The notes under the pieces were generated by a model. It did no database searches. It saw only the letters and a list, made by a program, of their open reading frames with translations, and was not told where the DNA came from. From the NCBI GenBank assembly GCA_016179745.1, contig JACPCP010000015.1, positions 1-45,607 of the forward strand: a stretch of 45,607 bases of DNA, written 5' to 3'. A program made the translations under genes and the position numbers. The first letter of the stretch is position 1; each line of letters begins with the position of its first letter. The DNA comes from Candidatus Omnitrophota bacterium. GTDB lineage: Bacteria; Omnitrophota; Omnitrophia; Omnitrophales; JACQLI01. Shown here one piece after another: positions 18,001 to 37,775 of this stretch.

Positions 18001-21000
18001 GCTGTTGAAGTTGCGAGCCATAGCCGTTTCTGGCCTGCATTTTTGGTGCCGGATACGATCATTCTCACTCCGAAGAACAAAGAGACCTTATATTCCCGGA
18101 ATGAGGATTTCGCCGGACTTCTTGGCACGTTCTACAAATTGGCCGATCAGATGGTTCTTGGGGTGTCCAACATGACAGGCAAGGGGCTGGTTATCTTTGA
18201 ACCTTGGTGGGGCCAGGGTGACGCAAGAAATTTTCCGACACCCTGGTGGTTTGTTTTGGCGGGGAACCTTGCAGGCAGCATGGCGGGCCTGGCTCTCTCG
18301 GTCCTTTTTATGAATGGAAATTATCTGACTTTCTGGATGTTTGGCTTCCAATTCTTGGGACTTGTCGCAACATTGGTGATGGGCGCAAGGATTGGAGGTG
18401 CCCTTGCCACAGTTCCTCATAAGCAGTTGAGTCACGACTATAAGGAAGCCGAGCGTGCCGGAGCGATTATCGTGGTCAATATTGGTATTACAGAGCCTGC
18501 CACTACCAATCGGATGGAGACTGACACACGGGTCAATGAGCGTTGGTTTATTGGTGATTTTTTGAGATTTGTTCTTGATATTTTCAAAGCTGGCGCAAAA
18601 GCTGTCTATCGCTGGATCACCGAACAGGGACCCTTGGGGTATCAGTCCACCCTCCTCTTTGGAATATGGATCATCAAGAGATACATTGTGGACCCGGCAT
18701 TTTCTGGGCTCGCCAACTTCTACTCACATTCTATTCCTCATACAACAGAATACGATATGGGTTCCATGATTCTTTCCAGTAACGCATGGGGCACTCTTCT
18801 TGCCATACTGATTTCAATTTTCATACTAGGTTTCCTCAGGAATGTAAGGGGAGTCGGTGGCGAAAAAGACGAGGCGTCGACGCTGTCGCCTTTCGCAAGA
18901 AAAGTGAACTTTACGCTGATGGCGATCCCGCTGATTCTCCTGATGGCACATTGGATCGGTCTGCTTTCGCTCTCTGCCGGCTTACTCGAAATGGTTTTCA
19001 TTGCAGGCTTGCCCGCCTTTGGTTATTTTCCGGCGAAGATTTTGGAAAGATACAACCTTGACACAACCCCTCTCCGATTTTTAATTTTGCTTGGTTCACC
19101 TTTCCTGGGCGGGGCCGTTGCTCCCATGGTGAATCCAGGACTCGTGGTTTTCAATTTTCCGGAAGTCCTTCTCCTTTTCTTGTTAACGATACAAATGTTT
19201 TTGGTCAATCCGATTTTGTTCGGAAGCGCCAGGGGACGGATGTGGCATAAAACCGCATTTTTCTATCTCAGCACAACGCTGTCCCTGGGGAATGCGATTC
19301 GTATTTTCAAATTTTTCGTCAGGGTCGTGATCAAAACCTCCATGGTCAGTTACCAGGATTTTAAGTCGAAATGGGATCTCTCCCTGGGAGCATTGATCGG
19401 CACGCCCTATGTCCTTCTGAGTAAGTTGGCGATCTTTGTAGTTCCGCCCGTTCTGTTTTTCGATATTGGAGGATACCGGTCGGCTGTCATTGCTCCATTG
19501 TCGAAGCTGCTTAGACTTGCAGATTTCTACGGTCCTGTCAGTCTGGGTGGAATGCAGGTATTTATCACCGGGCATCCGTATGTGACCGCTGTATTTCTTG
19601 GAATGGCCGCCGTCTGGTTCCTGTATCGTTCAAGCCGCTTGGTTGACCTTCCCATTAGAGACCAGCAGCATCCGTGGGTTGCCTTTGCATCGGTTGCGGT
19701 GAGAAACATCCTGCTTCTGGGGTCTTATCTTTACTTTTGGGATGTATTTCTGACTGCCCTATTCGGAATTTCTTCGGGCATTTTCTTCCATTCGAATTTG
19801 TGGACCTTTATCTTTGGCGTCACTTTCTTATGGTCGTGGTCCATGTCGCCCTGGCATGACTGGTTTATGTCGAAGGCGCTGCCGAAAGGATACCCTGCCG
19901 CAACGGTGCCCATGTCTTTCAGGAAGGCAAAGATGCTGTTCCGGCATTTCATTAACAGTCTCCTCTTGGAGTTTTTTGATCGGGTGCAGTTGGATGAAGC
20001 AAGCATGAATGAAAAATATGCCTGGTCTTTTAAATTTAAGTCAAGCGAACAGCCGAAACCGGGTGATCCGGACATACACTACGTATTCAAGATTGCGGGA
20101 GTTCGAAACTGGAAGGAAAACAGGACCCAACTCGCTGGGTTATCGAGCGTGCCCAATATGCTGTTTAATCTTGGGTTCTATTCGGGAATCTTTTTTGGAA
20201 TGAGCTTCTTTGTAGTAACCATCTTTCTTCACTCACTCCAGTTTGGCTGGCCAAGCTTTCTCTATTATGCATTTAGCGCCATTCCGGTCACCTTCCTCCT
20301 TCCGGCCTTGGCGGGGTTTGCGGCCGTAAACATTCTGATGATCTTTCCGCTGGGGGGCCTCGTTCTTGAGGAGTATCGCCGCTACATTGCGGATGAGACA
20401 ACTTCCATTCGGGATGGTCTGGGGCCCACACGCACGGGTTATCAAGTGCTGTATGCCCTGTTTGTGAAAGGCGGGAAAAACAATCTGCCCCCTCCTGAAA
20501 ATTGGCTGAATGGTGTTGTCCGCAAAGGCTTTATCTGGGGAGGCGAGAAGGCACTGAACCTCCTCGCTCGATTGCCCTTTGGGGTTGGAAAGTCATTCAT
20601 CAGATTGCTTTCGGCGAACGATGACGGAACTCCGCTGTTCAGGGCCAAGCCGATCGGAAAGAAAACGATTGGCGACGTGATGCCTCGGGAATTCCCCAAG
20701 CCAGGACCCTGGCGAACCTGGTTAATGCTGGGACTGGAAGCCGTGGCGCTGGCCGCCGTGCTTTATTTTATGAAGGGCGTCAATAAGGACAAAGAACGCA
20801 CGACAGGTCCGGCAACGAGCCGGCCGGCGGCGGAGCAGACGGTCGATATCGTTCCGCCACGGTCGGAGGTGCGGATGCCTGAAACGGGCCGGCTCAAGCG
20901 GATTAACCCGGCGGTGCATCCCGATCCGAAGGTGGTCATTTTTGATTTGGATGGGACGCTGGTCGATTCCCTCGGGATTCAGGAAGAGGCCTTCGGCCGG

Positions 21001-24000
21001 CTCTACTACTGGATTGTGAAGGGAGACCTCCGGGGGCGGGACTCCTCAGAGTATGCGGCGGCCGGGAAAGAATTTTTGAAAAGAACCATGGGGATGCTTT
21101 TCACAGCCCAGGTTTTAAGGATGCTTAAAGAAAGCCCGGCGTCCGAAAAAACCCTCAAGGCCCGTGCCGTCCGGATTGCCGAACGATACAAGATCCCAGC
21201 GGAAAAAATTCAGGGGCGTTCTTCCGGGAACGCCTATCTGGAAATCTACGAAGCCTTCTTGACAGAGAAGCTGGCCCAGACCGGCGTCAAGCGTCTGGCC
21301 GGCGTTGAGGGGTTCTTGAATTACCTGAAAGAAAGGGATATCCCAATCCACATCTTGACCGGCGGACTTGCCAAGATGGCTTACGAGCTGCCCCGGCGGG
21401 CGGGTGTCACCCATGACTTCAAGGAACACCACGGCGCTTCTCACGAAACTTTCCGAGTCACGACGGGCAAGGCGCACTTCATTGAGAAGATCCGAGGAAT
21501 GCATCGGGCGAAACCCCATCAGGTTTTGGTCTTTGGAGACGGGGCCGGAGATATGCGGGCAACGAGACTTCGCAACCGCAAGATTGCCGTTGGGATCGGG
21601 CTCGCCAAGGGAAGCCCGGATCTTGCCCAAGAGCTTGAAGCCTCCGGAGCGGACTTCATCGGCCATTCGCTTCGAGACTGGAAATCCTGGAAGAAGACCT
21701 TAAATCTCGAAGCGGCACCGGCAAAACGTTCCGAACTGCGGACTTCGGCCCGGTCCGATTCCTATGAATTTGTGAAACAAGTTGAACATGAGGCCGGGGC
21801 CCCCGGCGATCAGCACTTTCTGGGAATTGCGGAAGAGCTGAAACTGGGGTATCTGACCCCTGAGGAGGCGAGGCAGGAAGTCGAAAGACGTGTCCGCCAC
21901 CGATACCTTGATCTTGAGAAGCTCGTTCAAGAGGGGGAGTCGTCCGTCCCGATCGCATTGTATGAAATGTTGAGACGGCAGGTGGAAGAAAAAGACAAAC
22001 TGACTTCCGATGACAGGCCCGGGTTTATCCCCGAGGGTTTCGCTCCCGGCGCCCCCTATTACCAGGGGACCACCGTTCATCTCTTTGACCGGGGGAGTTA
22101 CGAAGGGCCCCGGTATTATCTCGGTTTGAATGTGCCGGGACGAAAACTTAGATTTCGAGGAGTGAAGGGACACACCAACCGGACCGGAGACAACTGTTTC
22201 CTTTGTCAGAAAAACATTCCTCCCCGGGAGATTGGGATCAAGTTTGCCGGGCTGGCAAAAAGCTACACGATCTTTGCGAATCCCTTCCCGTATGGTTTTT
22301 TTCATTTTGTCATGGTCCACGATGACCACCGGCGTCAATTTCTTGATCAAAAGACCCTTTTGGAAGTCATCCGGTTAAGCCATGAGCTTCCGGATTTTGT
22401 CTTCATGCACAATGGAGAGGCCGGCGCCTCGATCCCCTCCCACCACCACTGGCAGGGTTTTAAAGTGGGAGCCAGTTTGAGCATGACTCGCTTTAAGGAA
22501 CACCTTGACATAGACCCCAGCCTGAACAAACCCTTGATTCATGGCGACGCCTTTACAACAAGTTATGGAGAGAAAGTGAACTATGTCATCGGGACGTTTC
22601 CGATTTATCTCTATATCAACGAAGCGCTGAAGCCGAGCTCAGGGCTGTATGGCCGTCTTGAAATCTACAGGGATGAACCCGATTTTTTGGCGGCAAAGGT
22701 CCGGGACTGGTATGAAGGAGTGTCGGCCTACCTGGTGGAGGGCACAAACCCTGAGCAGGTCGCCGAGCTCGTGGATGCCCTGGTGAGAAAACTAACCGAC
22801 GAAGTTGGCGCAGGTTACAGCCTGGCCCTTCAACAAATGGAGCGGACGACGACGAAGAGGGTCTCTGTTCTGATCTTTCCCCGTCCCATGGGGAGAAGGC
22901 CGCAGCTGGCTCAAAATACAATCTTGATCGGAGCCCCCGAAATGGGCGGCTTGATCAACATTGCGGATCACCCCGGCTATTTTACGAATTTGGCCTTAAA
23001 CCAGGTTGCCGATCTGATGCGGGACGAGAGCCTTCCCTACGATCGTCTCGGGCCTCTTGACGAGGAGCTGGCTCGAAGATTTCGAGCGAGGTCGGAAGTG
23101 AGGACGCAAGCGGCCGCTCAAGCCCGGATCCGGGCGGAGCTGACCGGGACCCAGCGTGCGCTCATTAAAAATGAGAGAGAGCTCAGGAAACGGCTGAAAG
23201 AAGTTTTGGCGGACCGGACTCAAGACTTCAGCGACATCATCCTTGTGGTCAATGAGAAGAATTCTGAGAATGCCCGGCGGCTCATCGAACGGCAATTAAT
23301 AGGAACGGTCATTCCCAAATCCATGGAGCTTGGCAGGGACATCTGGATTATCGAGCAAACCGGGGCGGGAAGCATTACCGATCCCATGCAGGCTATCCAA
23401 AAAGTTCTCGAAAGGAAGAGGGATCTTTTTATCAAGGCCGGGGAAGACCCTGAAACCGTGGACCGGCTTTTGGAAGCGTCGGCCTTTTTTGTGGTGACCA
23501 TGAGCGGAAAGGCGAGCCGCAGTTTGACCGACAAGGCCTTTCTCAGGCTCCCCCAACCAAGAGGAAAGGGCCCGATTGGAAGTTATCTGGCAAGGGTTCT
23601 CCTCCAGCGGCTTTATTACCCACGGGTCCCCGGGGCCGTTATTCACTCGATTGACACGATGAACATTCCCCGGTTCCTTCCCGGAGAGCTTGGGGCGGCA
23701 GACATTCAAATGATCGGCGCCCCCCTCGGGACCCGTAATCGGGAAGTGCCGACCCTGGGGATGGCGGCGCTCCGGCATCCGAGGCGGGCGGGGTCGCAGG
23801 CGATCGAGTTTGTCGGAGAAAAATATACAAGAGAAGAACTGGATCAATTACAAGCGGCGGGACGGATCGGAAAAGAGATTGACGTGAACCACGCCGTTTA
23901 TTTTCTCAAATGGAAGCCGATCCGCTGGCTGATCGGTGAGGTGGAAGCGATGAAGCAGGCCCCCCCCGGGGCGCCTTACAACTGGGTGGAGTCTTTCTTT

Positions 24001-25497: not shown

Positions 25498-25518
25498 AAA
25501 GATGAAACTTCAGACAAG

Positions 25519-28500
25519 ATGAAACGAAACCGACGTTCGATCTCAATCCTGACGGTTTGTTTTTTTCTCTTCAATCTTTTTCTGCCTGTTCCCGGGGCTC
25601 TTATGGCGGGCCCTGCCTCGTCCGAGATTTTGCCGGGTCTTCTCAACGGAATGGACCCTTCAACGGCCAAAGTGGAGGAAGTCTCCCTGGCCCCTCCACG
25701 GGCCGGGAAGGCCCCCGTTTTCTTCTATGTTCAGGATGCTCACGCCCATCCCGATGCGCAGCAGTCGATCCGGGGGCTCCTCCATTATTTCAATGAGAAG
25801 TTCTCCGGCCGGCGCTGGGTGGTGGCGCTCGAGGGCGCCCGGGGCCCGCTTCATCCGGAGTATCTTGAATTTTTTAAAGACTATCCCGGGGCGGACAGGA
25901 AAATCCGGGAGGACCTTCTTCAAAAAGGAGAGCTGACCGGTGCCGAGCTTTTTGCGTGGGACCTTTACGAGAACGGCCGGCCCAGGGTCGTGATGGAAGG
26001 GGTGGAAGACCCCGGAACTTACCGGGCCCACCGGGAAGCCTACCTGGCTTTAACACAACAGATTCCCGAAGCTGAGCAGATCCTTCAGAAACTTTTTGGA
26101 GAGTCGGACCAGCTGGCCTCCACGGTTTTCAATCCCGAACTCAGGAAATTTGTCAAGGAGAGGACTCAAAGGGGAAGCGGCCGCTATTTGGGCCGAATCC
26201 GTCCTTTCGGCTCTTTCTCCACGGCGCTTTCCCAATGGGATGTCTATATCAGGTATTTGACTCGAAGGGCGAAGGAGGCTCTGGCCATTGATGTCGGGAA
26301 CCCCTATGAACAAATCCGTTTTCCGAATCTTCATCGGATCGCCAAGCTAAGTCAGTCGCAGAAGGAACGGCCTTCGGCGGCCCGGCTCCGTTTGAAGACG
26401 CTGGAGGAGGAAATCCGGTTTCCGGGATTGCAAAAGGAAATCGAAGCGCTTGAACGGGCCCTGGAGGCGAAGCTGGTCCATCGCAAAGAGGAAAAGGAGC
26501 TTCTTTCGATCCTCCGGGATTTGGAATTACTGCAGGGCCTTCTTTATTTGGAGTTGAAACCGGCCGAGTGGGCAAAAATCCGGGCCCGGCGGAGCGAATT
26601 CCGCCCGGCTGATTTGGCGGAGCGGCTCAAAAGACTGGGCGCCGCCGGCGAAGGGGCCGTTACGGGCAAACGCCCGCCAAAAAGCGTAGCGGGCCCGTCG
26701 GTCTTTGAGGCGGCCCTCCGATTTTATGAATCGGCCGGGCGGCGGGAACCGGTTTTGATTGAGAATGCGTTGGATCTGGCACGAAGCCATAACGCCGAAA
26801 TTCTCGTGATGATCACGGGCGGATTTCACGCCGAAGGGCTCAAGGAATCTCTCAAATCTCAAGGGGTTTCCTATGCCTCCCTCCAGCCCGCCCTCCGAAA
26901 GGCTGTTCCGCCCGGGCAGTATCACCGGGTGATGCAGGGAAAGAACGCAGACCTTTTTCAAAATGCGGGGATCCGGGCCGTTTCCAAGCAAGTCTCACTT
27001 CTGATGAAGGAAATGATCGAGGTGGGGCTTCCTGAAATTGCCAGGGACCGGAAGCTGTCGGATGATGAGCTCGGGGCCCTTCTCAAGCAGGCCGTGAACG
27101 ATCACCCGCTTCTCGGAAAAGAAATTTCTGAGGCAGGCCCGTCCGGCGGAGAGCACTCCTCCCGTCTTTCATGGCAAATCCCGGCTTTCATTTCAGGCCC
27201 TTCCCAGAGCGCCCTTCTTGAAAAAATGCTGACTCAGGATTCGCCGAATTACGCCCGCCTGGCTGATAGCGCCGGGTCCCCGGTCAACGGCAGGGCCCGG
27301 CTTGCAGTCGAAATCCGGAGCGGCCGCCCGCAAGTCTCGCTCCTGCGACCCGCTCTCCGTTCTGAGCTTAGAAATACGGGCTACCGCCCCCAGGGCCCGC
27401 CTCTGACCACCGAAGAAAGATGGAATCACTTCAACTTAAAGGCAGAGCTTCCGTTTCTTGTTAAATTCGCAGAGAAATTAAAGGAATTAAAGGCCAAGGC
27501 GGGCGTTCATGACCCCATTGCAGCGCTGGAAGAGGAAGCTTTTGAAAGGAAAGGGATCGATATCCAGCCGCCCGGAAAGGGGGATCTTGAGGTTCCCTTC
27601 GATGCTTGGCAATCAATGAAGCTTTCCTTGGGAGCGATTGCTCCCGAATTGGAGCCTGAAAAGCATGAGGCCAGGAAAGCCACTTTGGAAGGCATTGAGG
27701 CCAAGATGGCGTTGATTGACCCCATTGCATTAGAGTTGGACAAAGACGCCGGGAGAAAACTCCTCCGGGAGAAAAAACAAAGAATCATTATTCTGGCCGG
27801 GGGGATGTCGGTGCGGGGGGCGATCTGGGCCGATCAGCCCGTTTACATCCCGGGCTGGGGGATCATTCCTCTTCTGGCCCTTAAGATTTTGACCGCCTAT
27901 CATCGTGCGGACCAACTCGGTCTTCCGAGGCCCCTCATTGCCATTGCAGAAAGCGATTTTACGGCGCCGAAAGTTGAGCAGGCCCTTGAGTGGATGGTCC
28001 AAAAGGGATACCTGACTCTCGATGAAAAGGACACACAGATTGACCGTTTTCTGGTGAGCATCGTTCCCCGTCTGGACCGGGACGGCTCTTATTTCCGCCC
28101 CGGAGATTCCCAGGACGAAATCCAAACCTTTGCGAATGCCTCGCATGGAGACGGCTACCGCTACTATGTGTTAAGCGGACTTTGGGGGGACGACCAGGAG
28201 AAGGGGGTCCAGGTCGTGAGCTTTTTAAACATGAATGTCCCAACCGCCACTTTTGACGAAAGGATCCCGGGCCGTCTTTTCCGGTTGTCCCAGCCTGATG
28301 AAGACGGAACCCCCGGAAAGGCTGCGATGCTGCTCGAATTTACGGACAACCGGGGGGAACAGGGAGGTTTTTTGGCGAACGTTATTTATCGATTAAAAGG
28401 CAGACTCCGTTTTCTTCAATCGATCGAGGGCTGGCTCCTGGATGACCGGAATCTTGGCGAGATCAAGCGGAGCCAGGAGGATTTCCCTGTCTTTAACACC

Positions 28501-29736
28501 AATTCTGCGCATTTCCTGCACGCATTCATCGGAGAGATGTATGGGTTGGCAAATCTGAAGTTTATTCCCACAAGGCAGGCCTTGGAGGCTGATTCAAAAC
28601 AGCGGGAAAGGCTGCGTGATCAGGTCAACTCCAGGATCTCCCTGTTCGGGGACGAAGCACCGGGAGAAAAAATTGCAACTTATCCGGAGGAAAAATCAAT
28701 CGATGGAGAGCCCGTGGTCCAGTTGGCCCGGCTTTTGAGCGATCCCTTTAGAATCGCTGCCCGCCGGGGGGGGGCGATCGCTTACTATGTGCCACGGGAG
28801 ACATGGAAGGCCGTTCCCAGCCGGTATGACGAAGCCAAGAAAATTCAGGATATTGCCTTGAATGGGAAGGCATTCCAAGCGGCCCTCCTTCCGCAGCTGC
28901 CCCCGCCCCATTCTGACGAGCGGCCCCTCCCGGAGGCTGACGAATTGTATGACGATGTAAAAACTATTTTTAGAAAGCATCTCGAAATTTTCGACAAACA
29001 GCAAATCCCGCGCCTTAAAGCCGTCACCGAAACAATTAGCCTGCTAAAGGAGGCCGAAGAAGATCAGTGGAATGCGACTACAGAATTGGCAACAAAGCCT
29101 ATGCTGCAAGAAAGCATTGGGCTGGATGAGAAGAATATTGAATTTTATATGATGCGGAAGCAGGTAGCCGAAGAAGCGCTTTCAGCGCTTTTCGACTTAT
29201 ACCGTTATTTTTTGGCTGATTTCAAGGTGCAGGACCCAGGCAACATTCAGGCCTGGAAAGAGAAATGGGAAGGGTATGACAGTAAGGGAAGCTACGCCGA
29301 GAAGACAGCATGGGCAAAGTTTAGTATGCAGACCGACGAAACCGCCGGCGAAAAACGTTCCGAGGTGCGGGGAGAATCAAAGGTTCGGAAACAGCGCCCG
29401 ACAGCGGAACAGATAGAAATTTTAAAAAACATTTTGCATTTGAACCGGCCGGCGCTTGCCGGCCTTCCTGAAGAACTCCGGAAGGCCGTTCAAGAAGCGG
29501 CACGGACGGATTTTGAAAATGTTTACTCCGTGCCGTCTATTATTGAGGCTCTGAAAGAGTCGGGTCGTTCCGACGCTGAAGCGGGCAGGCTCGCAGTCTC
29601 TTTTGTCATGGACCAGTTGGGACGGCAGGAAAGACAGGCTGAGACCCGGCCTTTCAGTCCGGCGGAACAAGCGCCGCTCGGCCAGATGATCCTTTCCATA
29701 GAGGCTTACTATATAAAGGTAGCGGTGTCAGCTTGA
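25519..29736 (+). CDS. Secreted multi-domain protein: TraB/TIKI-like N-terminal module plus UDP-sugar-pyrophosphorylase-like domain
   Basis: This is a 1,405-aa protein 21 bases after the giant ORF, probably in the same operon. The start is chosen because residues 1-30 form a classical signal peptide (KRNRR n-region, hydrophobic core, ALMA cleavage box). A six-codon ORF at 25502 ends in a TGA overlapping this ATG, which may couple translation. Residues about 60-460 have VQDAHAHPDAQ, VVALEGA and ITGGFHAEGL, a spaced H...E...H pattern reminiscent of the TraB/TIKI/ChaN/EreA superfamily. RSELR at 27358 closes this first, 613-residue module. The middle module is a UDPGP-like nucleotidyltransferase. 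RSEVR at 29356 precedes a 121-residue tail ending AVSA. No exact function is known. A nucleotide-sugar enzyme behind a signal peptide is odd, because its substrates are cytosolic. Confidence 0.85.
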   Translation: MKRNRRSISILTVCFFLFNLFLPVPGALMAGPASSEILPGLLNGMDPSTAKVEEVSLAPPRAGKAPVFFYVQDAHAHPDAQQSIRGLLHYFNEKFSGRRWVVALEGARGPLHPEYLEFFKDYPGADRKIREDLLQKGELTGAELFAWDLYENGRPRVVMEGVEDPGTYRAHREAYLALTQQIPEAEQILQKLFGESDQLASTVFNPELRKFVKERTQRGSGRYLGRIRPFGSFSTALSQWDVYIRYLTRRAKEALAIDVGNPYEQIRFPNLHRIAKLSQSQKERPSAARLRLKTLEEEIRFPGLQKEIEALERALEAKLVHRKEEKELLSILRDLELLQGLLYLELKPAEWAKIRARRSEFRPADLAERLKRLGAAGEGAVTGKRPPKSVAGPSVFEAALRFYESAGRREPVLIENALDLARSHNAEILVMITGGFHAEGLKESLKSQGVSYASLQPALRKAVPPGQYHRVMQGKNADLFQNAGIRAVSKQVSLLMKEMIEVGLPEIARDRKLSDDELGALLKQAVNDHPLLGKEISEAGPSGGEHSSRLSWQIPAFISGPSQSALLEKMLTQDSPNYARLADSAGSPVNGRARLAVEIRSGRPQVSLLRPALRSELRNTGYRPQGPPLTTEERWNHFNLKAELPFLVKFAEKLKELKAKAGVHDPIAALEEEAFERKGIDIQPPGKGDLEVPFDAWQSMKLSLGAIAPELEPEKHEARKATLEGIEAKMALIDPIALELDKDAGRKLLREKKQRIIILAGGMSVRGAIWADQPVYIPGWGIIPLLALKILTAYHRADQLGLPRPLIAIAESDFTAPKVEQALEWMVQKGYLTLDEKDTQIDRFLVSIVPRLDRDGSYFRPGDSQDEIQTFANASHGDGYRYYVLSGLWGDDQEKGVQVVSFLNMNVPTATFDERIPGRLFRLSQPDEDGTPGKAAMLLEFTDNRGEQGGFLANVIYRLKGRLRFLQSIEGWLLDDRNLGEIKRSQEDFPVFNTNSAHFLHAFIGEMYGLANLKFIPTRQALEADSKQRERLRDQVNSRISLFGDEAPGEKIATYPEEKSIDGEPVVQLARLLSDPFRIAARRGGAIAYYVPRETWKAVPSRYDEAKKIQDIALNGKAFQAALLPQLPPPHSDERPLPEADELYDDVKTIFRKHLEIFDKQQIPRLKAVTETISLLKEAEEDQWNATTELATKPMLQESIGLDEKNIEFYMMRKQVAEEALSALFDLYRYFLADFKVQDPGNIQAWKEKWEGYDSKGSYAEKTAWAKFSMQTDETAGEKRSEVRGESKVRKQRPTAEQIEILKNILHLNRPALAGLPEELRKAVQEAARTDFENVYSVPSIIEALKESGRSDAEAGRLAVSFVMDQLGRQERQAETRPFSPAEQAPLGQMILSIEAYYIKVAVSA
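27480..28700 (+). other. UDPGP-family-like nucleotidyltransferase domain (middle of the 1,405-aa protein)
   Basis: IILAGGMSVRG (about 27787) matches the glycine-rich LAGGxGTR loop of UDP-sugar pyrophosphorylases. SHGDGYRYYVLSGL (about 28141) matches the P-x-G-H-G-D loop, VVSFLNMNVPTATFD (about 28213) matches the N-V-D-N metal strand with the Asp replaced, and FNTNSAHF (about 28492) matches the F-N-T-N motif. The usual Lys shortly after the glycine loop is not evident (the segment reads ADQPVYIPGWG). The fold is fairly convincing, but catalytic competence is doubtful. Confidence 0.55.
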
Positions 29737-29744
29737 TTACTTTC

Positions 29745-29798
29745 CCTTAGGCCCCTCTCAAGCCCGCTCATTTTTGTTCTCCTAAGGCTGTAATTTTT
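29745..29798 (+). terminator. Weak terminator-like inverted repeat downstream of the 1,405-aa ORF
   Basis: CCTTAGG at 29745-29751 pairs with CCTAAGG at 29781-29787, and a run of six T follows a few bases later. The loop of about 29 bases is long and the stem is short, so this is at best a weak intrinsic terminator. The position between a stop codon and the next promoter is appropriate. Confidence 0.25.
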
Positions 29799-29851
29799 TG
29801 TAACTTGTTACTTTGTATTAGGTTGTAGATGTATCCTTTTGTCACCCTAAA

Positions 29852-29880
29852 TTGAGAATTCGGGGTTTGCCGGCTATACT
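29852..29880 (+). promoter_or_regulatory. Sigma-70-type promoter for the 2,614-aa ORF
   Basis: TTGAGA (29852-29857) and TATACT (29875-29880) are separated by 17 bases, a near-consensus housekeeping promoter. The predicted transcript start near 29887 lies after the in-frame ATG at 29883, so that ATG cannot be used on this transcript. This supports the start at 29931. Confidence 0.6.
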
Positions 29881-29930
29881 TTATGAAGTCCGGACTTTGT
29901 AAGTCATTACCTATGAAAAGGAAAGAGAGT

Positions 29931-32900
29931 ATGCAAAACGCTCAGAGAAGACGTGTGTGCGCAGCTGTCACGGCGTGTGTTTTTTTCTGCACCCAACCGG
30001 TGTGGGCTGGAGCGGAACCCTTCCGCTCTTTACAGATTTCCGGCGAATTTGGCGAAGTCCGGGAGAGCCGGCAGGGAGAATCCGGCAAGGTCATCATTCA
30101 CATTCAGGATTCGCATTCCAATTTCGAGGCGCAGAAAAATATTGCCCGCATCATTCAGGAGTTGGCAAAGTCTGGGGTTTCCCTCGTGGGCCTGGAGGGG
30201 GCGTCGGAACCTCCCCGGATCGAGGAATTCCGGAATTACCCAAGCCCCCGGCCCAAGGAGGAAGTGGGCCTCGAATTGGTGAAGCGGGGCGATTTCACGG
30301 GCGGCGAACTCGGCGGGATCCTGAGCGTTCCCGAAGTCAGGCTTTTCGGAGTCGAGGACAAGCGTCTCTACCTCCGGAACTACCGGGCCTTTCAATCCGT
30401 GGCAGAGATCAGGAAAGAAATCCTCGATGCCTTGTCTGACCTTGAAAAAACGATCGGCAATTTCAAGGCTGTCCTTCTTTCTTCGGAATCGAGAAAGCTC
30501 GAACGGTTTCTCATGGATTACCGGAGAGGTGTGCGGAAGGCCTGGGATTATTTCAAACGGCTGGAGAAGGAAGCGGCGGCAGAGAAACTGCCGCTTGAGA
30601 GGTATCCTGCATTCTTTGAATACCTGAATTGGTTCCATGAGCAGGAAAAGATGAATGCCGCCAGGCCGGACCCGGCCCGCCTGAAGGCATCCCTCGAGAA
30701 GTTCGGGAAGATCGATTATGAAGGTCTCCTCCGGGAATCCCGTGAGATTGAGAAGGCCGTGCGTCTCGGCCTGTGTGAAAACGAGACCCAAAGAGAACTC
30801 ATCCGGCTTTCCTTCCGGCAGGAACTCTTGGCGGACCTTGTGTCGCTCGAGGCCGTCCGGGAGCAATACGGGGATTACAGAAAAAATGAATCCGGGTTTT
30901 CGGCCGGCTCGTTTTTAGGTTTCTTTGAACGGACCGCCTCCGACTACGGCATCCGCTACTCGGTCAGCCCGAAAATTCGGGAGTTGGACCGCCTTCTTCC
31001 CAAGGTCAAGGCCTTCTATGAAACCGCCCAGAAACGGGACGATGCCATGCTCCATCGTGCCGTCCGCCAATTGGAGAAGACGGGCGAGAAGGCGGCTGTG
31101 CTCGTGACGGGCGGATACCACACGCCGGGACTGGTTCAACGGATGAAGGACCAGGGCATTTCCTATTTTGTCGTGACGCCCAAAATGACCTCGTCCGCCT
31201 CCGACATCCCCTACGAGGATTTGATGACGGGAAAGATCCGGCCCGTGGAGTTTTTCCGCTCCCAATTACAGAGGGTGCTCCGGTCCGAACCCGGGCTCTT
31301 GGAAGAGACCGGTCTCCTCCACAGGATGGGCTTTCAAAGTCCCGACGAATATTGGAGGTATTTCACCGGGCAGGTCCTCTCCCGCTTTGCGGCCGTCGAT
31401 CTCCTGGATCGGCTCCAAAAGCAACTCGAGGATCGTGCAAGCCCAATTACGGATCAGGAGGTTCAACAGATTTTGCAGCAGACCCTCCAAAGGTTTTCTG
31501 AATATCTGGAGCAGCATCGTTATCAAGCCGAGATTCAAGGGTCTGCCACGACCGCTCACCTCCTGGCCCAAAAGGCCGGCCGCATCGACCGCCTCGTTCT
31601 CCGTGAAAGGAACCAGCTGATCTCCGTGATTCAAAGTGGCATTCAGAAGATTTCATTGGCAACTCCAGATACCTTGCCGGCCGTCCTTCTGGGGATCCGG
31701 TCTGACCTCGAACAGGCCCTCAGTTCTTATCTTGACAGCCTAACTCGGGCCAAGGCGGAGGCCTTTGGGCGTTCTGAGGTGCGTGGAAATTTCCTCAGGC
31801 ATGACCACGTTTCTAAACCCGGCCATACGGATGGGGTGCTTCAAGCCCTTAATGCGCAGAATCATGAGCTCTACGAATGGTTCGAAAGATTTATGGCCAG
31901 GAATGGATTTAAAGGGGTTTATATTGCTCCCGAGATTTCCAGGGATCTCTTCCAGTCAGCCGTAAAAAGCAGCTTCACTCATCCTCGGGTAATGACACGA
32001 AGCGTGGATGGTCAAACGTTCAATGTTGAGTATGCGCCGCCTCCCTACGAGATTCATAGCCACATTCTTCGACCCGAACATACGCAAGGGCTGCTGGACT
32101 CACTCGACGCCCGTGAGCTTCGAAGTCTTGAAGACCATCTCCGGGCCCGTCATTTTACAAGGGTCTACATCGATCCAGGAGTCAGCCTCGTCGTTTTAGA
32201 GGCCTGGATCAAAAGCGGTTTTACCGACCCTCAGATTCTCCCTCGGCGGGTGGATGGGACGACGGTCAATATCGAGCTTTCAAGCGTCCGGGCCCAGAAT
32301 ATCAATGAGGGGGTCCGAGAGCGATTAAAAGCCGCTCTCGAAAAGACCCGAGACCGGGGCTTCATTGGGGTGATGGAAGTCTCGATCGAAGTGCCCCTCT
32401 TTGACCTCCAGGGAAGGAAGATGAAACGGGTCGGCCCGGGCGGGGGAGGGCTTGGGCTTTTTATGGAAGAGCAGCCTTCGCTAGTTGCCGGGGAGGGGGT
32501 CTCGGTGGGCGTTGCAAGCCCTTTGTTCAGTGCCGATCTCGAAGCTTATATGCAGGCGAACCATGCCGGACTTCCGAAGGGGGCGTGGCTCGACCAGTTC
32601 CTGAAGGATTTTGGCGCTGAATTCTTGATGGACCTTGAACTCCCTGTGGGAGGCGGCACCGTTCCTTTCAAGGTCCTCGCTCTTGAACGGGAGGGCGTCA
32701 GCCATTTTCTCATCTATCATGAAGAAGGAGAATTTTTCCACACGTTGTATGACCGCCCCTACCCGAACACCTTTGGGGCTTATCTCGAGGCCTACTTTCT
32801 TCCATTGGCCGCCGTTGAAATTCCCCGGCAGCTCGGGATTCAGTTCGAGACCTACCACTTTCATGATTGGCAGACGGCATCGGGGCTCGTGATCCTGACA

Positions 32901-35900
32901 GAAAGATACCGGGATCAGACGTGGCCGCTCGGCCACCCTCCGGGCCCTACTCAAAATATCCACAGCCTGTATAAAGGGGACTTTCCAAATTTTATGAAGC
33001 CCGACGACCCGCTTAGGAAATACCTCATTCAACGCCGGGCCCTTTCTTTAGATGCCCCCGAGTCTATTGATATTTTCAGTTTAACCCACTTGGATGCCTA
33101 CAGAGGTTACCCCGTCGCCAGTCTTCGGGACCGAAAAAACAATGACGGCCTCGAATTTTTCGGTGCTCACAGTCTCTTAAAGAGCCTTATTCGTTCGCGT
33201 AAGGTTGTCTTTGTGAGCCAGGGGCATAGGAGGGAGGCCTTGACGGACCGGGGGCAGGGTTTCGACGGCATTTTGAGGACCCTGCCCGAGGGAGTTCTCG
33301 AGGCTGTCTACAATGGAATCCGGGCGGCCAAACACCGGCCCGAGAATCTGAAGGCGTTAAGACAAGACGGGTTTATCCCGGTCGATCCTTCCCGCACCCT
33401 TCCGATGATGACACCGGGGGAGCGTGCCGAATGGAAGCGGCTCAATAAAGCAGCATTACAGAGAAGGCTTGGGTTGGAACCAAATGAGAAACACATGGTC
33501 GTGGGGATCGTTACAAGAATCGTCAGTCAGAAAGGGCTTAATCTTTTAATGACGGTGATGCCCAGCGGGAAAACGCTGCTTGAAGAGCTTCTCGGCCTTG
33601 AAGACCCAAAGACGGGAGCAAAAATCCAGATTGCGGTTTTGGGGACCGCAGGAGATCAGCCCGGCAAGATACAGGCCCGGTTTCTAAGGGAATTTCTTAA
33701 ACAACATCCCGGGTATCAAGGAAGATTTGTCTTCGTTGAAAAATTCGATCCTTTACTTAAAGACCAGATGAGTGCAGGAAAGGACGTATTTTTCATGCCT
33801 TCCATTGATGAGTATGGCGGGCTTGCCAATTTGGAGTCTGCCCTCAAACTTGCGCTTGTGCTGGCCCCCAGCCGGGGTGGTTTGAATGACTTCAAGCAAG
33901 CCGGTGGCACCCCGCTTCCGCTCATTGACGGGTTTGAGATTAACGGAAGCCATGAGGCAGCCACGCCATCCGATCCAGACTATTCCGAATATCAGGCCCA
34001 GAGACAGAAATCCGGCGCTCAGACCCTGGCGATCCTCCTGGATTTGATGGTGCTTTACAACGATTACCTGGAGAAATCGAAATTGGGACCGGTTACTGAA
34101 CACCGCTATCTGGACTATCTGACCAGCGTTGCAAATTTCAATCCCGATTGGGGCGACCGGCCCAAGGAATATGTCCGAATTTACCGTGAAGCCCTCGCCG
34201 CCGTTCGTTCGGAAGTGCGCACGCAGAGAGCCGTCGAGGGGATTCCAGCAAAGCGGCCGGCAACCGCTGCCGAAGCGGTCCGAAAATGGAAGCAATATGT
34301 CCGGGAGGCGCCGGTTTCGAATTCGCCGCTTCTGACGAAGGCCCCGCTCAGCTTTTTTGTCACGACAACCCCGGAGAAGGGATGGCAGAATCCGGTTACG
34401 CACGACAGCGGATTTTATGCAAAGGTCCTGCCTCCCTTCACGCTTCGTGACGGCAGAAATATCGTTCCGATCGTCGGCGATTTCTACGAGGTGAAAACAA
34501 TTGAAGAGGTCGTGGACCCGGCTGCCAAAGAGCTTGTCGATGCGGCGGGCGGCCTCACCCGATCGGCTAGGATGTTCGAAGAAAGAGAAAAGGAATGGCG
34601 TAAACACTCCCCCGAGTCGAGACCGGCTGGTTCTCCGTCTTCCGGGCCCAGCGAGATTAAAGAGTATTTGAGAGGACTTGAAACGCTTGATGGCATGATG
34701 AACCAAATCAAGAACCTTCCAAGTCAGCAAGCGGCTCGTGGTCAAGCAGCGCCGATAAAAAAGATCGCCGCTTCAACCTTAAAATCCCTGCTCTATATCC
34801 TTAAGGAACATGATGATCCTGTGTTCAGAGAATTCTTGAAAGAGCGGCACATCAGTTTTGAGGAACTCATTTCCCTTCCCGATGGAGTGCTTGAGATTTT
34901 CGTCCCGGGACGAATTTTCTACCAAGGCGACCAGGTCCGCTGGAAAGACTACTGGGAGAAAAATAAGGGCCGTAACGAGGTCCAGGACGTCGGCCGAAAG
35001 AGGTGGGCCCACCATGAGAAGAGCCTTCTTTACAAGAAGTGGGAACTTGAAAATCGGGGCGGCTGGAAAGACAGCACTGAATGGCGTTTGTTTAAATTGG
35101 ATGAGATCGAGGATGAAAAATATGCGTTTGAAGCCGTGTCGATGTTCGAGGCCTATGAAACACTGGAAGATTACCTGGGGCCGGCCCTCCGTTTCGAGAG
35201 CGTGGAAAAAGTTACGATTCCGGGCCTCAAAGTGCGGGCGGTGATTCACCCGTTGGACGATCGTGAGATCAGAGAGCGGTTTGGACTTGAGCGCGTCTAC
35301 GACTCGTTAGGCAAGCCGCTGACCGTGGAGGCTCATACCTACAAGGATGTGGTCGGCCGGCTGGCGTTTCTTTACGGGCCGGGAGGCTTTGCCGAGGCAC
35401 AATCCGAAGAAGGCGTTCGACAGGCGATCGATACGCCGGAGGATTTTCTTTCTGCGTTATTGAAGGGAGACGCACTCTCTTTAGTTTCGGGCAGGCTCGA
35501 TATCAAATCGGCGGGAACCATCCAGCCCAAGATCCACCGGCTGAAGGCTTCCGGAATCAAACCCGGCAGAAAAGCTGAACGGGTTGTAAAGAAAATGCCG
35601 GAGGGTCTCGTCGTTGAGAAGTGGCCCGATCAACCTTGGGAGAGCTCGATTTCACTCGGAGTTAGGAGAGTCATTGGACAATCTGCCAAAATCGAGAGTG
35701 AACTTATCTTAGAGCACGACGGGAAGAGTGAGGTGATCTCATGGGAGGATTTCCTGAAACGGCCGGGTATGGTTTTTGACTCGGAATACCAGCCGGGGTT
35801 TCCCTCTCCCTCGGGCACGGAAGTGGCTCCCTTCTCGGAAGAGGCCGTTAAAGCCGAGAGGAACTTTCAGGCCCTGTCCGGAATGAGCCCTTATCACACC

Positions 35901-37775
35901 TTCTCCCGCTTCTCATTTGGCGGGCAAAAGAGTGACAAAAAAGAATTGCAGGCGAGCCTGCGGTTTACCCGTGCGGACGGGGAGGGAAGCCTCCGGCTTC
36001 ACGAGGCGTTCGAGGAATTCAGACGGGACCCGGAGAGGAGTCTTATTGGGAAATGGATCAGGGAAGGCCGGACTCAGAAAGTCCTGGAGGATTTCTTTCT
36101 CAATCTCGGCAAAAACCAGTTTGCGCTCCTGGCCGCCGGTAAAATCTGGATACGCCTCGGGGCGCAGCTTCAACACATGTCGAGCCCCGCCCAAGTCTCG
36201 CCTCTTTCAGAAACTTACCTGTTTTTTCTGAAGAATACGGATATCGTCGAGGGGCGTCAGGCTGATCTGGGAGATTTCCTCGAATTGAAGACCAATCCGG
36301 AAGACAGGAGCCTGGATGATCGAGATGTCCATGAATCGATCGCCATCCTGATCCATCTGGTGGGCCAGCTTCTTCATGACCTGGAGGCAAAGGGGGTGAC
36401 TCGTGATTCCGAAGAACTCAGGAAGCATCTGCTCGGGCGTTTCGTCGAAGGGTTTACCGGGCAGGCCGTTTCCGAGAAAGACCTACCGGATCCGCCCACG
36501 CTTGACCGGGTTCGCTACGTCCGTGAAATTCACGAGGAGCGAATGTCTTACTACGGGACGAATACTCTTATTCACCCTTACTTGGCGTTTCGACGTGAAC
36601 CTTTGAAAGAAACTGAAAAACTGGAGCCTCTCCTCAAGAAGCTCTCGGGTATCTTCGATCCCGTCCTGAAAGAATTTTGGCCGGTGGAATTTATTAACTA
36701 TGACGCAGGTGCGGACACCACTTTTACGGATCGTCTCAGCCCCTTCGACCCGCCGAATGTCTTTTACGGCAGTGCGAAAGGATTGCGGAAGACTCCAGAG
36801 GAATATTTCCACTTTATTTCCAGGATGCGCCACGGAACACGCCGCCCGGGGACTGCAATGACGGAGGAGGGGACATCCGTTCTTGGGGCGATCCAGTCCG
36901 CCCACGGGCAGGTTCGCAAAAAGGAGGCGGACTTCAGAAATGCCCTGGAGAAGGCACGGGACAGCCTGGAATCCAGCGTCCGTGAGAAATACAAGGATTT
37001 CTTCGAATTGATTTTAGCCGTGCATCAGGCATTTCAATCTCAAGGGAATCGTGTCTTCCTCAAAGACAGGGAACTTTCTCTTTCCGAGGCCCTGAATCAA
37101 ATCAATCAAATAAGACAAGCCTTGGGTGATTTCAGCGCTAACGCCGCCGTCCGCTCGGAAGTGCGCTTTACGGCGGAAAAAGTTGTTTTGGTCGACCGGG
37201 AGGTGATGCAAAGTTCGGGGATCCGGGCGGTCGATCAATGGATGAAGCTGGTTTACGGACCGGATTACGATCATTACAAGGCAAAGGTGGAAGAAGAGAT
37301 CGAAAAGAGGATGGAAGAAGAGCGGGCGGCGGTCGGTGGGAAATTAGGCCTCAGGGTCATTCCCTTCCGGAGGGGGAGTGCGGATGAAGATTTTTCACAA
37401 GCGCTTCGCCGTTCCGGAGTGACAAATCCCGAACAAGTGTTTGTGGTCGACCGGGCCCTGGAACAGGAAGGGGGGCTTCAGGATATGGGCGCCCGAGTGG
37501 CCGAAATCGAAGGTTCGGGGGTGCCGAGAAATCAAATTGGTTTTCTCAGACTCAGCCGGAGCCTTCCGGATTTGAAAGGGAAGCGGGTGGGAGACAGGAT
37601 CGAAGTACCCCTCTCGTTTTCGGACGTTATTTTTGATCTCTTGAAAAGGACAAGTCGTGGGGAAGTCCGCCGTCCCTCCTTTTATTCCACAAGGCCCATC
37701 CTTCTGACGCCGGATTATTATTCGGCCCTGAGCGAGTTGGGGAAGATCCAGGAACGCCTCGCCGCCTCGGCATAA
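29931..37775 (+). CDS. Secreted multi-domain protein: TraB/TIKI-like module, His-rich repeats, GT5 glycogen-synthase-like domain, large unknown module
   Basis: This is a protein of about 2,614 aa. In-frame ATGs lie at 29883, 29913 and 29931. I choose 29931 because a purine-rich AGGAAAGAG site (29919-29927) precedes it, the promoter rules out 29883, and it gives a compact signal peptide (QRRR n-region, VWA cleavage box near residue 26). It also makes the first module exactly 613 residues, as in the upstream ORF. That module has IQDSHSNFEAQ, VGLEGA and VTGGYHTPGL, homologous to the N-terminus of the upstream protein. RSEVR sites lie at 31770, 34206 and 37152. They delimit an 807-residue unit (two His-rich repeats plus a GT5-like glycosyltransferase), a 977-residue unknown unit and a 202-residue tail ending AASA. 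It likely makes or modifies a glucan-like polymer, but the signal peptide conflicts with a cytosolic sugar-nucleotide donor. Confidence 0.85.
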   Translation: MQNAQRRRVCAAVTACVFFCTQPVWAGAEPFRSLQISGEFGEVRESRQGESGKVIIHIQDSHSNFEAQKNIARIIQELAKSGVSLVGLEGASEPPRIEEFRNYPSPRPKEEVGLELVKRGDFTGGELGGILSVPEVRLFGVEDKRLYLRNYRAFQSVAEIRKEILDALSDLEKTIGNFKAVLLSSESRKLERFLMDYRRGVRKAWDYFKRLEKEAAAEKLPLERYPAFFEYLNWFHEQEKMNAARPDPARLKASLEKFGKIDYEGLLRESREIEKAVRLGLCENETQRELIRLSFRQELLADLVSLEAVREQYGDYRKNESGFSAGSFLGFFERTASDYGIRYSVSPKIRELDRLLPKVKAFYETAQKRDDAMLHRAVRQLEKTGEKAAVLVTGGYHTPGLVQRMKDQGISYFVVTPKMTSSASDIPYEDLMTGKIRPVEFFRSQLQRVLRSEPGLLEETGLLHRMGFQSPDEYWRYFTGQVLSRFAAVDLLDRLQKQLEDRASPITDQEVQQILQQTLQRFSEYLEQHRYQAEIQGSATTAHLLAQKAGRIDRLVLRERNQLISVIQSGIQKISLATPDTLPAVLLGIRSDLEQALSSYLDSLTRAKAEAFGRSEVRGNFLRHDHVSKPGHTDGVLQALNAQNHELYEWFERFMARNGFKGVYIAPEISRDLFQSAVKSSFTHPRVMTRSVDGQTFNVEYAPPPYEIHSHILRPEHTQGLLDSLDARELRSLEDHLRARHFTRVYIDPGVSLVVLEAWIKSGFTDPQILPRRVDGTTVNIELSSVRAQNINEGVRERLKAALEKTRDRGFIGVMEVSIEVPLFDLQGRKMKRVGPGGGGLGLFMEEQPSLVAGEGVSVGVASPLFSADLEAYMQANHAGLPKGAWLDQFLKDFGAEFLMDLELPVGGGTVPFKVLALEREGVSHFLIYHEEGEFFHTLYDRPYPNTFGAYLEAYFLPLAAVEIPRQLGIQFETYHFHDWQTASGLVILTERYRDQTWPLGHPPGPTQNIHSLYKGDFPNFMKPDDPLRKYLIQRRALSLDAPESIDIFSLTHLDAYRGYPVASLRDRKNNDGLEFFGAHSLLKSLIRSRKVVFVSQGHRREALTDRGQGFDGILRTLPEGVLEAVYNGIRAAKHRPENLKALRQDGFIPVDPSRTLPMMTPGERAEWKRLNKAALQRRLGLEPNEKHMVVGIVTRIVSQKGLNLLMTVMPSGKTLLEELLGLEDPKTGAKIQIAVLGTAGDQPGKIQARFLREFLKQHPGYQGRFVFVEKFDPLLKDQMSAGKDVFFMPSIDEYGGLANLESALKLALVLAPSRGGLNDFKQAGGTPLPLIDGFEINGSHEAATPSDPDYSEYQAQRQKSGAQTLAILLDLMVLYNDYLEKSKLGPVTEHRYLDYLTSVANFNPDWGDRPKEYVRIYREALAAVRSEVRTQRAVEGIPAKRPATAAEAVRKWKQYVREAPVSNSPLLTKAPLSFFVTTTPEKGWQNPVTHDSGFYAKVLPPFTLRDGRNIVPIVGDFYEVKTIEEVVDPAAKELVDAAGGLTRSARMFEEREKEWRKHSPESRPAGSPSSGPSEIKEYLRGLETLDGMMNQIKNLPSQQAARGQAAPIKKIAASTLKSLLYILKEHDDPVFREFLKERHISFEELISLPDGVLEIFVPGRIFYQGDQVRWKDYWEKNKGRNEVQDVGRKRWAHHEKSLLYKKWELENRGGWKDSTEWRLFKLDEIEDEKYAFEAVSMFEAYETLEDYLGPALRFESVEKVTIPGLKVRAVIHPLDDREIRERFGLERVYDSLGKPLTVEAHTYKDVVGRLAFLYGPGGFAEAQSEEGVRQAIDTPEDFLSALLKGDALSLVSGRLDIKSAGTIQPKIHRLKASGIKPGRKAERVVKKMPEGLVVEKWPDQPWESSISLGVRRVIGQSAKIESELILEHDGKSEVISWEDFLKRPGMVFDSEYQPGFPSPSGTEVAPFSEEAVKAERNFQALSGMSPYHTFSRFSFGGQKSDKKELQASLRFTRADGEGSLRLHEAFEEFRRDPERSLIGKWIREGRTQKVLEDFFLNLGKNQFALLAAGKIWIRLGAQLQHMSSPAQVSPLSETYLFFLKNTDIVEGRQADLGDFLELKTNPEDRSLDDRDVHESIAILIHLVGQLLHDLEAKGVTRDSEELRKHLLGRFVEGFTGQAVSEKDLPDPPTLDRVRYVREIHEERMSYYGTNTLIHPYLAFRREPLKETEKLEPLLKKLSGIFDPVLKEFWPVEFINYDAGADTTFTDRLSPFDPPNVFYGSAKGLRKTPEEYFHFISRMRHGTRRPGTAMTEEGTSVLGAIQSAHGQVRKKEADFRNALEKARDSLESSVREKYKDFFELILAVHQAFQSQGNRVFLKDRELSLSEALNQINQIRQALGDFSANAAVRSEVRFTAEKVVLVDREVMQSSGIRAVDQWMKLVYGPDYDHYKAKVEEEIEKRMEEERAAVGGKLGLRVIPFRRGSADEDFSQALRRSGVTNPEQVFVVDRALEQEGGLQDMGARVAEIEGSGVPRNQIGFLRLSRSLPDLKGKRVGDRIEVPLSFSDVIFDLLKRTSRGEVRRPSFYSTRPILLTPDYYSALSELGKIQERLAASA
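31800..32286 (+). repeat. Two tandem His-containing protein repeats, about 80 aa each
   Basis: Copy 1 starts at 31800 and copy 2 at 32055. Shared positions are H-x-H-(V/I)-x-x-P-x-H-T-x-G-(V/L)-L near the start, F-x-x-V-Y-I-x-P in the middle, and F-T-x-P-(R/Q)-(V/I) ... R-x-V-D-G-x-T-x-N-(V/I)-E at the end. The three aligned histidines in each copy could bind a metal. The pair directly follows an RSEVR site and precedes the GT5-like domain. The family is not recognised. Confidence 0.6.
32355..34200 (+). other. GT5 glycogen/starch synthase-like domain (within the 2,614-aa protein)
   Basis: The GT-B signatures of GT5 appear in the right order. They are a VSIEVPLF N-terminal strand (about 32379), GPGGGGLGLF where KxGGL is expected (about 32436), YHFHDWQTASG (about 32853), TQNIHSLYKGDF (about 32949), VSQGHRREAL (about 33213), TRIVSQKGLNLL (about 33511) and FFMPSIDEYGGLANLES (about 33789). 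The last matches the donor-site E-x-x-G-L of the family. GT5 enzymes extend alpha-1,4-glucan from ADP- or UDP-glucose. The Lys of KxGGL is displaced or absent. An RSEVR abuts the C-terminal helix. Confidence 0.75.

Follow-up and report, generated by a model that had tools for sequence, protein, structure and literature searches.

The locus and its pentapeptide

The window analysed here is the whole of a 45,607-nucleotide stretch (contig C12, positions 1-45607) of a Candidatus Omnitrophota MAG (G000; 1.5 Mb, 25 contigs, 79% complete). Three consecutive ORFs on its + strand carry copies of a pentapeptide, each located by sequence match. ORF1 (34..25497), the giant of the three, is truncated at its 5' end by the contig start, has 8,498 visible residues and terminates in ..GHSA, with the final Ser-Ala at 25489..25494. 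Its first 6,900 residues (34-20859) contain no copy of the pentapeptide and no cysteine, and the sole domain recognised there is a TolC-like outer membrane efflux (OEP) domain at 3361..3828 (Pfam PF02321, E 2.2e-6). The five copies of ORF1 all lie at or beyond residue 6,953, and a hydrophobic segment (residues ~6,905-6,927) immediately precedes the first of them, an RSEVR at 20860..20874 that is followed by Met. Together with an RSELR at 21727..21741, this copy brackets a HAD hydrolase cassette (20929..21561; PF00702, E 1.3e-13), which lies 18 and 55 residues from the two motifs. A DUF4922 domain (22192..22458; PF16269, E 5.9e-14) is flanked in turn by the second copy and by an RSEVR at 23089..23103, and its start holds the only two cysteines of the 8,498 residues, a CxxC pair at residues 7398 and 7401. 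The remaining copies of ORF1 are an RSEVR at 24832..24846 and an RSELR at 25129..25143.

ORF2 (25519..29736; 1,405 residues) ends in ..AVSA (Ser-Ala at 29728..29733) and begins with a putative Sec-type signal peptide (..PGALMA; 25519..25608), followed by an N-terminal TIKI-like domain at 25606..27285 (E 1.9e-164 with profile A1, which itself includes ORF2). An RSELR sits immediately past this domain (27358..27372) and an RSEVR further downstream (29356..29370). ORF3 (29883..37775; 2,630 residues) ends in ..AASA (Ser-Ala at 37767..37772); its start codon is uncertain, with 29883, 29913 and 29931 as candidates, and a likely Sec-type signal peptide (..TQPVWA) spans 29913..30008. Its own TIKI-like domain (29988..31670; profile A1) has H52, E79 and H387 in A1 numbering, and is again immediately followed by a motif copy, RSEVR at 31770..31784. 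That copy and a second RSEVR (34206..34220) flank a Glyco_transf_5 domain of the starch/glycogen synthase type (32445..33278; PF08323, E 6.6e-13), and a third RSEVR lies at 37152..37166.

The initial annotation of the window had listed these ten RSE(V/L)R copies and put their chance expectation well below one. All ten were recovered at the same positions and with the same codons, against 0.06 expected in the 12,533 residues of the three ORFs; 2,000 shuffles of these residues gave a mean of 0.06 and a maximum of 2. The reported absence of the motif from the first 6,900 residues of ORF1 extends to its broader form, and none of the six ordinary ORFs checked to the right has a copy. The definition itself was real but too narrow, since the family is better described as R-[SA]-E-[VALTIM]-R, with 117 copies versus 1.9 expected in the 64,171 residues of G000 ORFs of at least 1,300 residues. 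An unbiased count of 5-mers over these ORFs ranks RSEVR (39 versus 0.14 expected), RAEVR (36 versus 0.19) and RSEAR (24 versus 0.18) at the top, with RSELR close to them (11 versus 0.24). Summarised overall, the motif is R-[SA]-E-[V/A/L/M/T]-R; its two Arg and its Glu hardly ever change, with Lys almost never standing in for either Arg, and the segments delimited by the motif have a median length of 262 residues.

Counts for the whole genome were obtained with a DNA pattern and from those stretches of contigs that were read, with expectations derived from residue composition. The pattern CGNTCNGARGTNCGN occurs 30 times in G000, compared with 3 occurrences of the reversed control. The annotation had asked whether ordinary proteins carry the motif equally often, and the ordinary ORFs of the contigs read have none. 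Below 1,300 residues, five copies were found in only two ORFs (864 and 585 residues), both of them devoid of cysteine and ending in [SA]A, traits that place them in the same protein class as the giant carriers. A chance origin, a composition artefact or a plain Arg/Glu-rich expansion is left with practically no probability by the counts in the window, in the genome and in ordinary ORFs, and counts are at background level in those Omnitrophota that lie outside the order; nothing was found in favour of such an origin. In a full-text search of open-access papers, RSEVR appears just as chance strings.

Cassette borders and the carrier proteins

Pfam scans of the giant ORFs of G000 and five relatives (about 77,000 residues) recognise a minority of the cassettes, and reveal several independently folded units per giant ORF. 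The domains found include HAD, DUF4922, GT5, TIM, PGK, GAPDH, PFK, PALP, iPGM and GPI, as well as sigma-70 regions, response regulators, protein kinase, SNF2 helicase, methyltransferases and epimerases, among others. The suggestion that the motif lies at or near domain edges is borne out by its position relative to 41 of these domains: not one of 209 motif copies falls inside a domain, against 23 predicted by chance, and zero was never reached in 20,000 random placements. Cassette homology between otherwise unrelated giant proteins tells the same story: of 17 cases, 9 have an edge no more than 15 residues from a motif on both sides of the comparison, versus 0.4 for random positions. This coincidence of homology edges with the motif indicates that the units are shuffled as cassettes. 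In nearly all ORFs having both, moreover, the first motif lies shortly C-terminal to the common N-terminal domain. The motif is hence a cassette delimiter between independent, enzyme-sized units.

The clearest-cut arrangement is that of a complete triosephosphate isomerase (TIM) in locus L046 (contig C1), which reads RSEAR, seven residues, TIM, four residues, RSEAR and then Met. Every position that does not vary across 28 TIMs from the phylum is kept in this one, and its predicted structure is a TIM barrel; in the model, the upstream motif falls in a low-confidence stretch, and the downstream motif where the last helix ends, with low confidence beyond. The cassette is devoid of the cysteines that stand-alone relatives keep. 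G000 has two TIM copies, both within giant ORFs: that of L046 (residues 1181-1441) and one in L034 (contig C8; residues 1175-1422), from which the active-site Asn and loop 6 are missing and whose activity has probably been lost. Most relatives have a stand-alone TIM, while none was found in G000 at its 79% completeness. The C8 ORF (L034/L033; 14,650 residues) combines TIM, PGK, the C-terminal GAPDH domain and an aldose epimerase-like unit, a glycolytic series in a single chain. At the contig edges, the end of C20:67-13752 (L039; ..GDWEPAI) resembles the start of C25:3-8447 (L041; GDWEPAA..), and the two contigs may adjoin.

The proteins carrying the motif form one class, defined by a Sec signal peptide, the TIKI-like N-domain, cysteine depletion and a C-terminal [SA]A. 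Sec-type signal peptides, read by eye, are apparent in the complete N-domain motif ORFs of G000 and in relative G036, and in those of G000 they precede an N-domain with the signatures ..QDAH...EAQ.., ..EG.. and ..GGFH... Cysteine makes up 0.04% of residues in motif ORFs (27 of 60,042) versus 0.99% in other G000 ORFs (423 of 42,559), a depletion of about 25-fold, and many of the remaining ones belong to CxxC pairs or to the signal region. The C-terminal [SA]A is present in 11 of the 14 motif ORFs of G000 with a natural stop, compared with 2 of 93 other ORFs, and in 17 of 18 large cysteine-poor ORFs of other genomes, motif-free ones included. Across the phylum, these ends are preceded by a short hydrophobic or helical stretch (in the three window ORFs and in L096, L097, L101, L105, L108, L112-L113, L132, L136 and L137), and the tail looks like a C-terminal signal, be it for secretion, for a tail-specific protease or for ssrA-like recognition. 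Because of the signal peptides and the loss of cysteine, export appears likely, and the features of the class fit proteins that work outside the cytoplasm.

Profile A1 detects 10 N-domains in G000. Numbers per genome range from 1 to 31 among relatives of the order, two genomes of the same class have 7 and 27, and the rest of the phylum has between 0 and 7; relatives sharing the domain are, where named, all Candidatus Omnitrophota MAGs. Contigs of relatives were scanned with a two-row alignment as query, an eight-row alignment being too diverse. The AF2 model of the domain (pLDDT 75) gave weak but specific Foldseek matches (E 0.07-0.9) to EreC (6xcs), HopBA1 (5t09), 3b55 and ChaN (2g5g), all members of this superfamily and including the proteins named as TIKI-superfamily neighbours in the VvRRSP paper (PMC6254334). 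Pfam returned a weak ChaN match below its cut-offs, and a PDB sequence search with the domain profile nothing useful. The weak fold matches and the conserved His, Glu and His tentatively liken the domain to the TIKI/EreA/ChaN superfamily. Active-site residues H52, E79 and H387 are invariant, but the 2His/2Glu set of TIKI is incomplete, with the first Glu, two residues before the first His, replaced by D, T or N. As opposed to known members, the domain would constitute a new branch below Pfam cut-offs, in which one catalytic Glu is not kept and which here heads giant exported ORFs.

Constraint on the peptide and distribution in the Omnitrophota

From the variety of codons among copies, the initial annotation had concluded that selection acts on the peptide. 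Relative G021 provides sound support for this view, since its 37 copies all read RSELR in 34 distinct 15-mer DNA spellings, and an invariant peptide spelled in so many ways implies selection at the protein level. The conclusion needs qualifying in that the copies also share DNA ancestry, as seen in the serine codon, which is TCN in 237 of 242 copies over five genomes, with AGY nearly absent. TCN and AGY serines cannot be interconverted through single synonymous changes, and the TCN serines hence agree with inheritance of an old TCN motif whose peptide was kept under constraint. G000 over-uses the spelling CGC-TCC/GCC-GAG-GTG/GCG-CGG (including CGC-TCC-GAG-GTG-CGG): CGC encodes the first Arg in 62 copies versus 16.5 expected, TCC the Ser in 52 versus 20.6, GTG the Val in 65 versus 26.1, and CGG the last Arg in 72 versus 41.7. 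This fits a more recent copying of the motif in this genome. The codons of G021, by comparison, show no Glu bias and a weak Arg bias.

The synonymous bias of G000, the scarcity of AGY serines in five genomes and the homology edges at the motif could also be taken to mean that the motif acts mainly at the DNA level, as a site of some 15 bp (CGCTCCGAGGTGCGG) through which cassettes recombine or spread and of which the peptide is the translation. We regard this as improbable. It is strained by G021, where the peptide is constant while synonymous sites vary; the absence of AGY is equally expected from common descent under peptide constraint; there is little DNA conservation outside the 15 bp; and every copy lies in the same frame.

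The fourth residue of the motif differs by genome. It is Leu in all 37 copies of G021 and all 8 of G032, Ala in 10 of 14 copies of G004 and Thr in 7 of 12 of G009, an unevenness matched by none of 5,000 permutations in which copies were treated as independent. This test used only stretches chosen by N-domain or by size, irrespective of the motif. Other stretches of relatives were picked for RSEVR clusters or for the N-domain, which biases their motif densities and Val share upward, and genomes sampled with the RSEVR pattern lean to Val because of how they were picked.

The motif is conserved in homologous giant proteins of relatives, another point raised by the initial annotation. The DNA pattern is frequent in families f1, f4 and f8, and at background level in Omnitrophota outside the order. 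Covering CGN, TCN and GTN codons only, it under-counts genomes such as G021, and the idea that motif-poor genomes simply do without the system proved partly wrong, as their proteins show RSELR (G021), RSEAR (G004) or RSETR (G009). Families f2, f3 and f7 have giant cysteine-poor ORFs of the same kind that end in [SA]A wherever a stop is visible, and their genomes encode the N-domain, but these ORFs show no motif and no substitute 5-mer; giant ORFs can thus exist without the motif. Since giant proteins of a similar kind occur in these motif-free families of the order, the motif is most simply read as a derived trait that was added to a pre-existing class of giant exported proteins. In G189, a member of the same phylum (f20), the RSEVR pattern has 13 scattered, unclustered matches compared with 2 for controls.

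Possible processing or docking, and parallels with known systems

The sequence context of 393 non-redundant motif copies narrows down what such a delimiter may do. Order-promoting residues become rarer only within about 12 residues of the motif, creating a narrow disorder-promoting context. Proline is found once at position +1 (19.2 expected) and is enriched from -3 to -1, Asp and Glu are scarce at -1 (12 versus 52 expected), and serine is in excess at both -1 and +1 (75 versus 25 at each). Met at +1 (18 versus 6.8) suggests former start codons past the motif. The scarcity of proline at +1 and of acidic residues at -1 is compatible with endoproteolysis. The initial annotation had suggested a processing site, with a conserved linker or recognition tag as the alternative; the delimiting role, the constraint on the peptide and the position outside domains support its view in part. 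With a probability of about 0.58, we propose that the motif is a spacer between independently folding cassettes, and that an endoprotease most likely cuts it behind the second Arg (R-x-E-x-R↓x). We infer the position of the cut from the subsite pattern, the strictness of the motif and the completeness of the cassettes. An endoprotease acting just behind the last Arg would be expected to ban proline on that side only, and this is the main reason for preferring cleavage to a plain linker.

The main rival to this proposal is a recognition tag or linker that stays uncut and serves as a docking or folding signal for a chaperone, for the secretion machinery or for a surface scaffold, with cassettes held apart and the giant chain intact. 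The same position at borders and the narrow disorder-promoting context would be shared by such a linker, a strict R-x-E-x-R suits any binding partner, and giant proteins of V. archaeovorus are discussed as coat or predation proteins (PMC10066038). A generic linker, however, needs no invariant Arg, Glu and Arg, nor does it account for a proline ban confined to the C-terminal side; a whole enzyme with short flanks, TIM for example, seems more useful once released, and the motif-free families manage without any such element. We therefore consider an uncut linker unlikely, if clearly less so than a DNA-level site.

Candidate proteases were sought by co-distribution over 58 genomes, and none emerged among C11, C14, S1 and S8. 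Peptidase_C11 occurs in none of the 58; Trypsin (S1) occurs in 35, being both present and absent in motif-rich and in motif-free genomes alike; Peptidase_C14 (3 genomes) and Peptidase_S8 (14) bear no relation to motif counts. The TIKI-like N-domain is equally abundant in the motif-free families f2, f3 and f7, and hence not particular to genomes with the motif. Endopeptidase activity is proven for VvRRSP, a member of the TIKI family (PMC6254334).

Under the preferred reading of the motif as a cleaved spacer, the giant chain would be exported via Sec, as its signal peptide suggests, and the N-terminal TIKI-like module and the cassettes would fold outside the cytoplasm, in keeping with the signal peptides and the loss of cysteine. 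A protease would then recognise the exposed spacer and free the cassettes; the TIKI-like module may itself play this part, or a periplasmic enzyme with housekeeping duties. Recombination at borders, where homology breaks at the motif, would have spread and shuffled the cassettes, and the drift of residue 4 by lineage may track the specificity of the recognising factor. Taken at its broadest, this would amount to a genome-wide extracytoplasmic polyprotein system in a group of families within one order, in which dozens of exported chains, purged of cysteine and built of exchangeable enzymes that include glycolytic ones, would be cut at one shared pentapeptide whose residue 4 co-evolves in each lineage with a dedicated protease. 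We put forward this joint proposal tentatively, at somewhat below even odds.

Viral polyproteins, such as those of picornaviruses and potyviruses, also carry several enzymes per chain with a short, repeated and strict recognition sequence between them. The likeness lies in enzymes joined in one chain by such a spacer; the chains described here, on the other hand, are bacterial, apparently exported and encoded by dozens of genes per genome, with cassettes shuffled between genes, a genome-specific residue 4 and no embedded protease identified. MARTX toxins are exported giant bacterial proteins that carry exchangeable effector units and are processed. They share with the apparently exported Omnitrophota proteins the giant chain of exchangeable units, and one of their effectors, VvRRSP, is an endopeptidase of the TIKI family (PMC6254334). 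Pfam found no match to RTX repeats or to the inositol-phosphate-induced cysteine protease domain of MARTX in the approximately 77,000 residues scanned; here the delimiter is an Arg pentapeptide, and many cassettes resemble ordinary metabolic enzymes. Secreted chains of the gingipain type are processed at Arg, as is proposed here for a secreted bacterial chain, and the PGK-TIM of Thermotoga is a natural enzyme fusion with TIM inside a longer chain, but both are single genes with few units and without a genome-wide spacer common to many genes.

Giant ORFs of the Omnitrophota have been described in a previous study (Nat Microbiol 2023, PMC10066038) as poorly understood and poorly conserved, with few annotated domains. 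The ORFs of Omnitrophota and Velamenicoccia covered there agree with ours in phylum, in a length of at least 20 kb and in their few annotated domains. Coats, adhesion and predation are treated in that study; a keyword search of its text returned no match for 'polyprotein', 'cysteine', 'cleav' or 'signal peptide', and no recurrent delimiter. Among the open-access papers searched, none contains both 'polyprotein' and 'Omnitrophota'.

The delimiter described here lets the giant ORFs of the Omnitrophota be parsed into units for annotation, expression and assay. If the site is cut, these ORFs would represent polyproteins in bacteria that rival in scale those so far familiar from viruses, and the cleavage code of each lineage could identify the protease through co-variation. 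More generally, the purge of cysteine, the signal peptides and the intact TIM point to enzymes of central metabolism acting outside the cytoplasm, and such extracytoplasmic metabolism would bear on the dealings of these bacteria, presumed to be predators or symbionts, with other cells.
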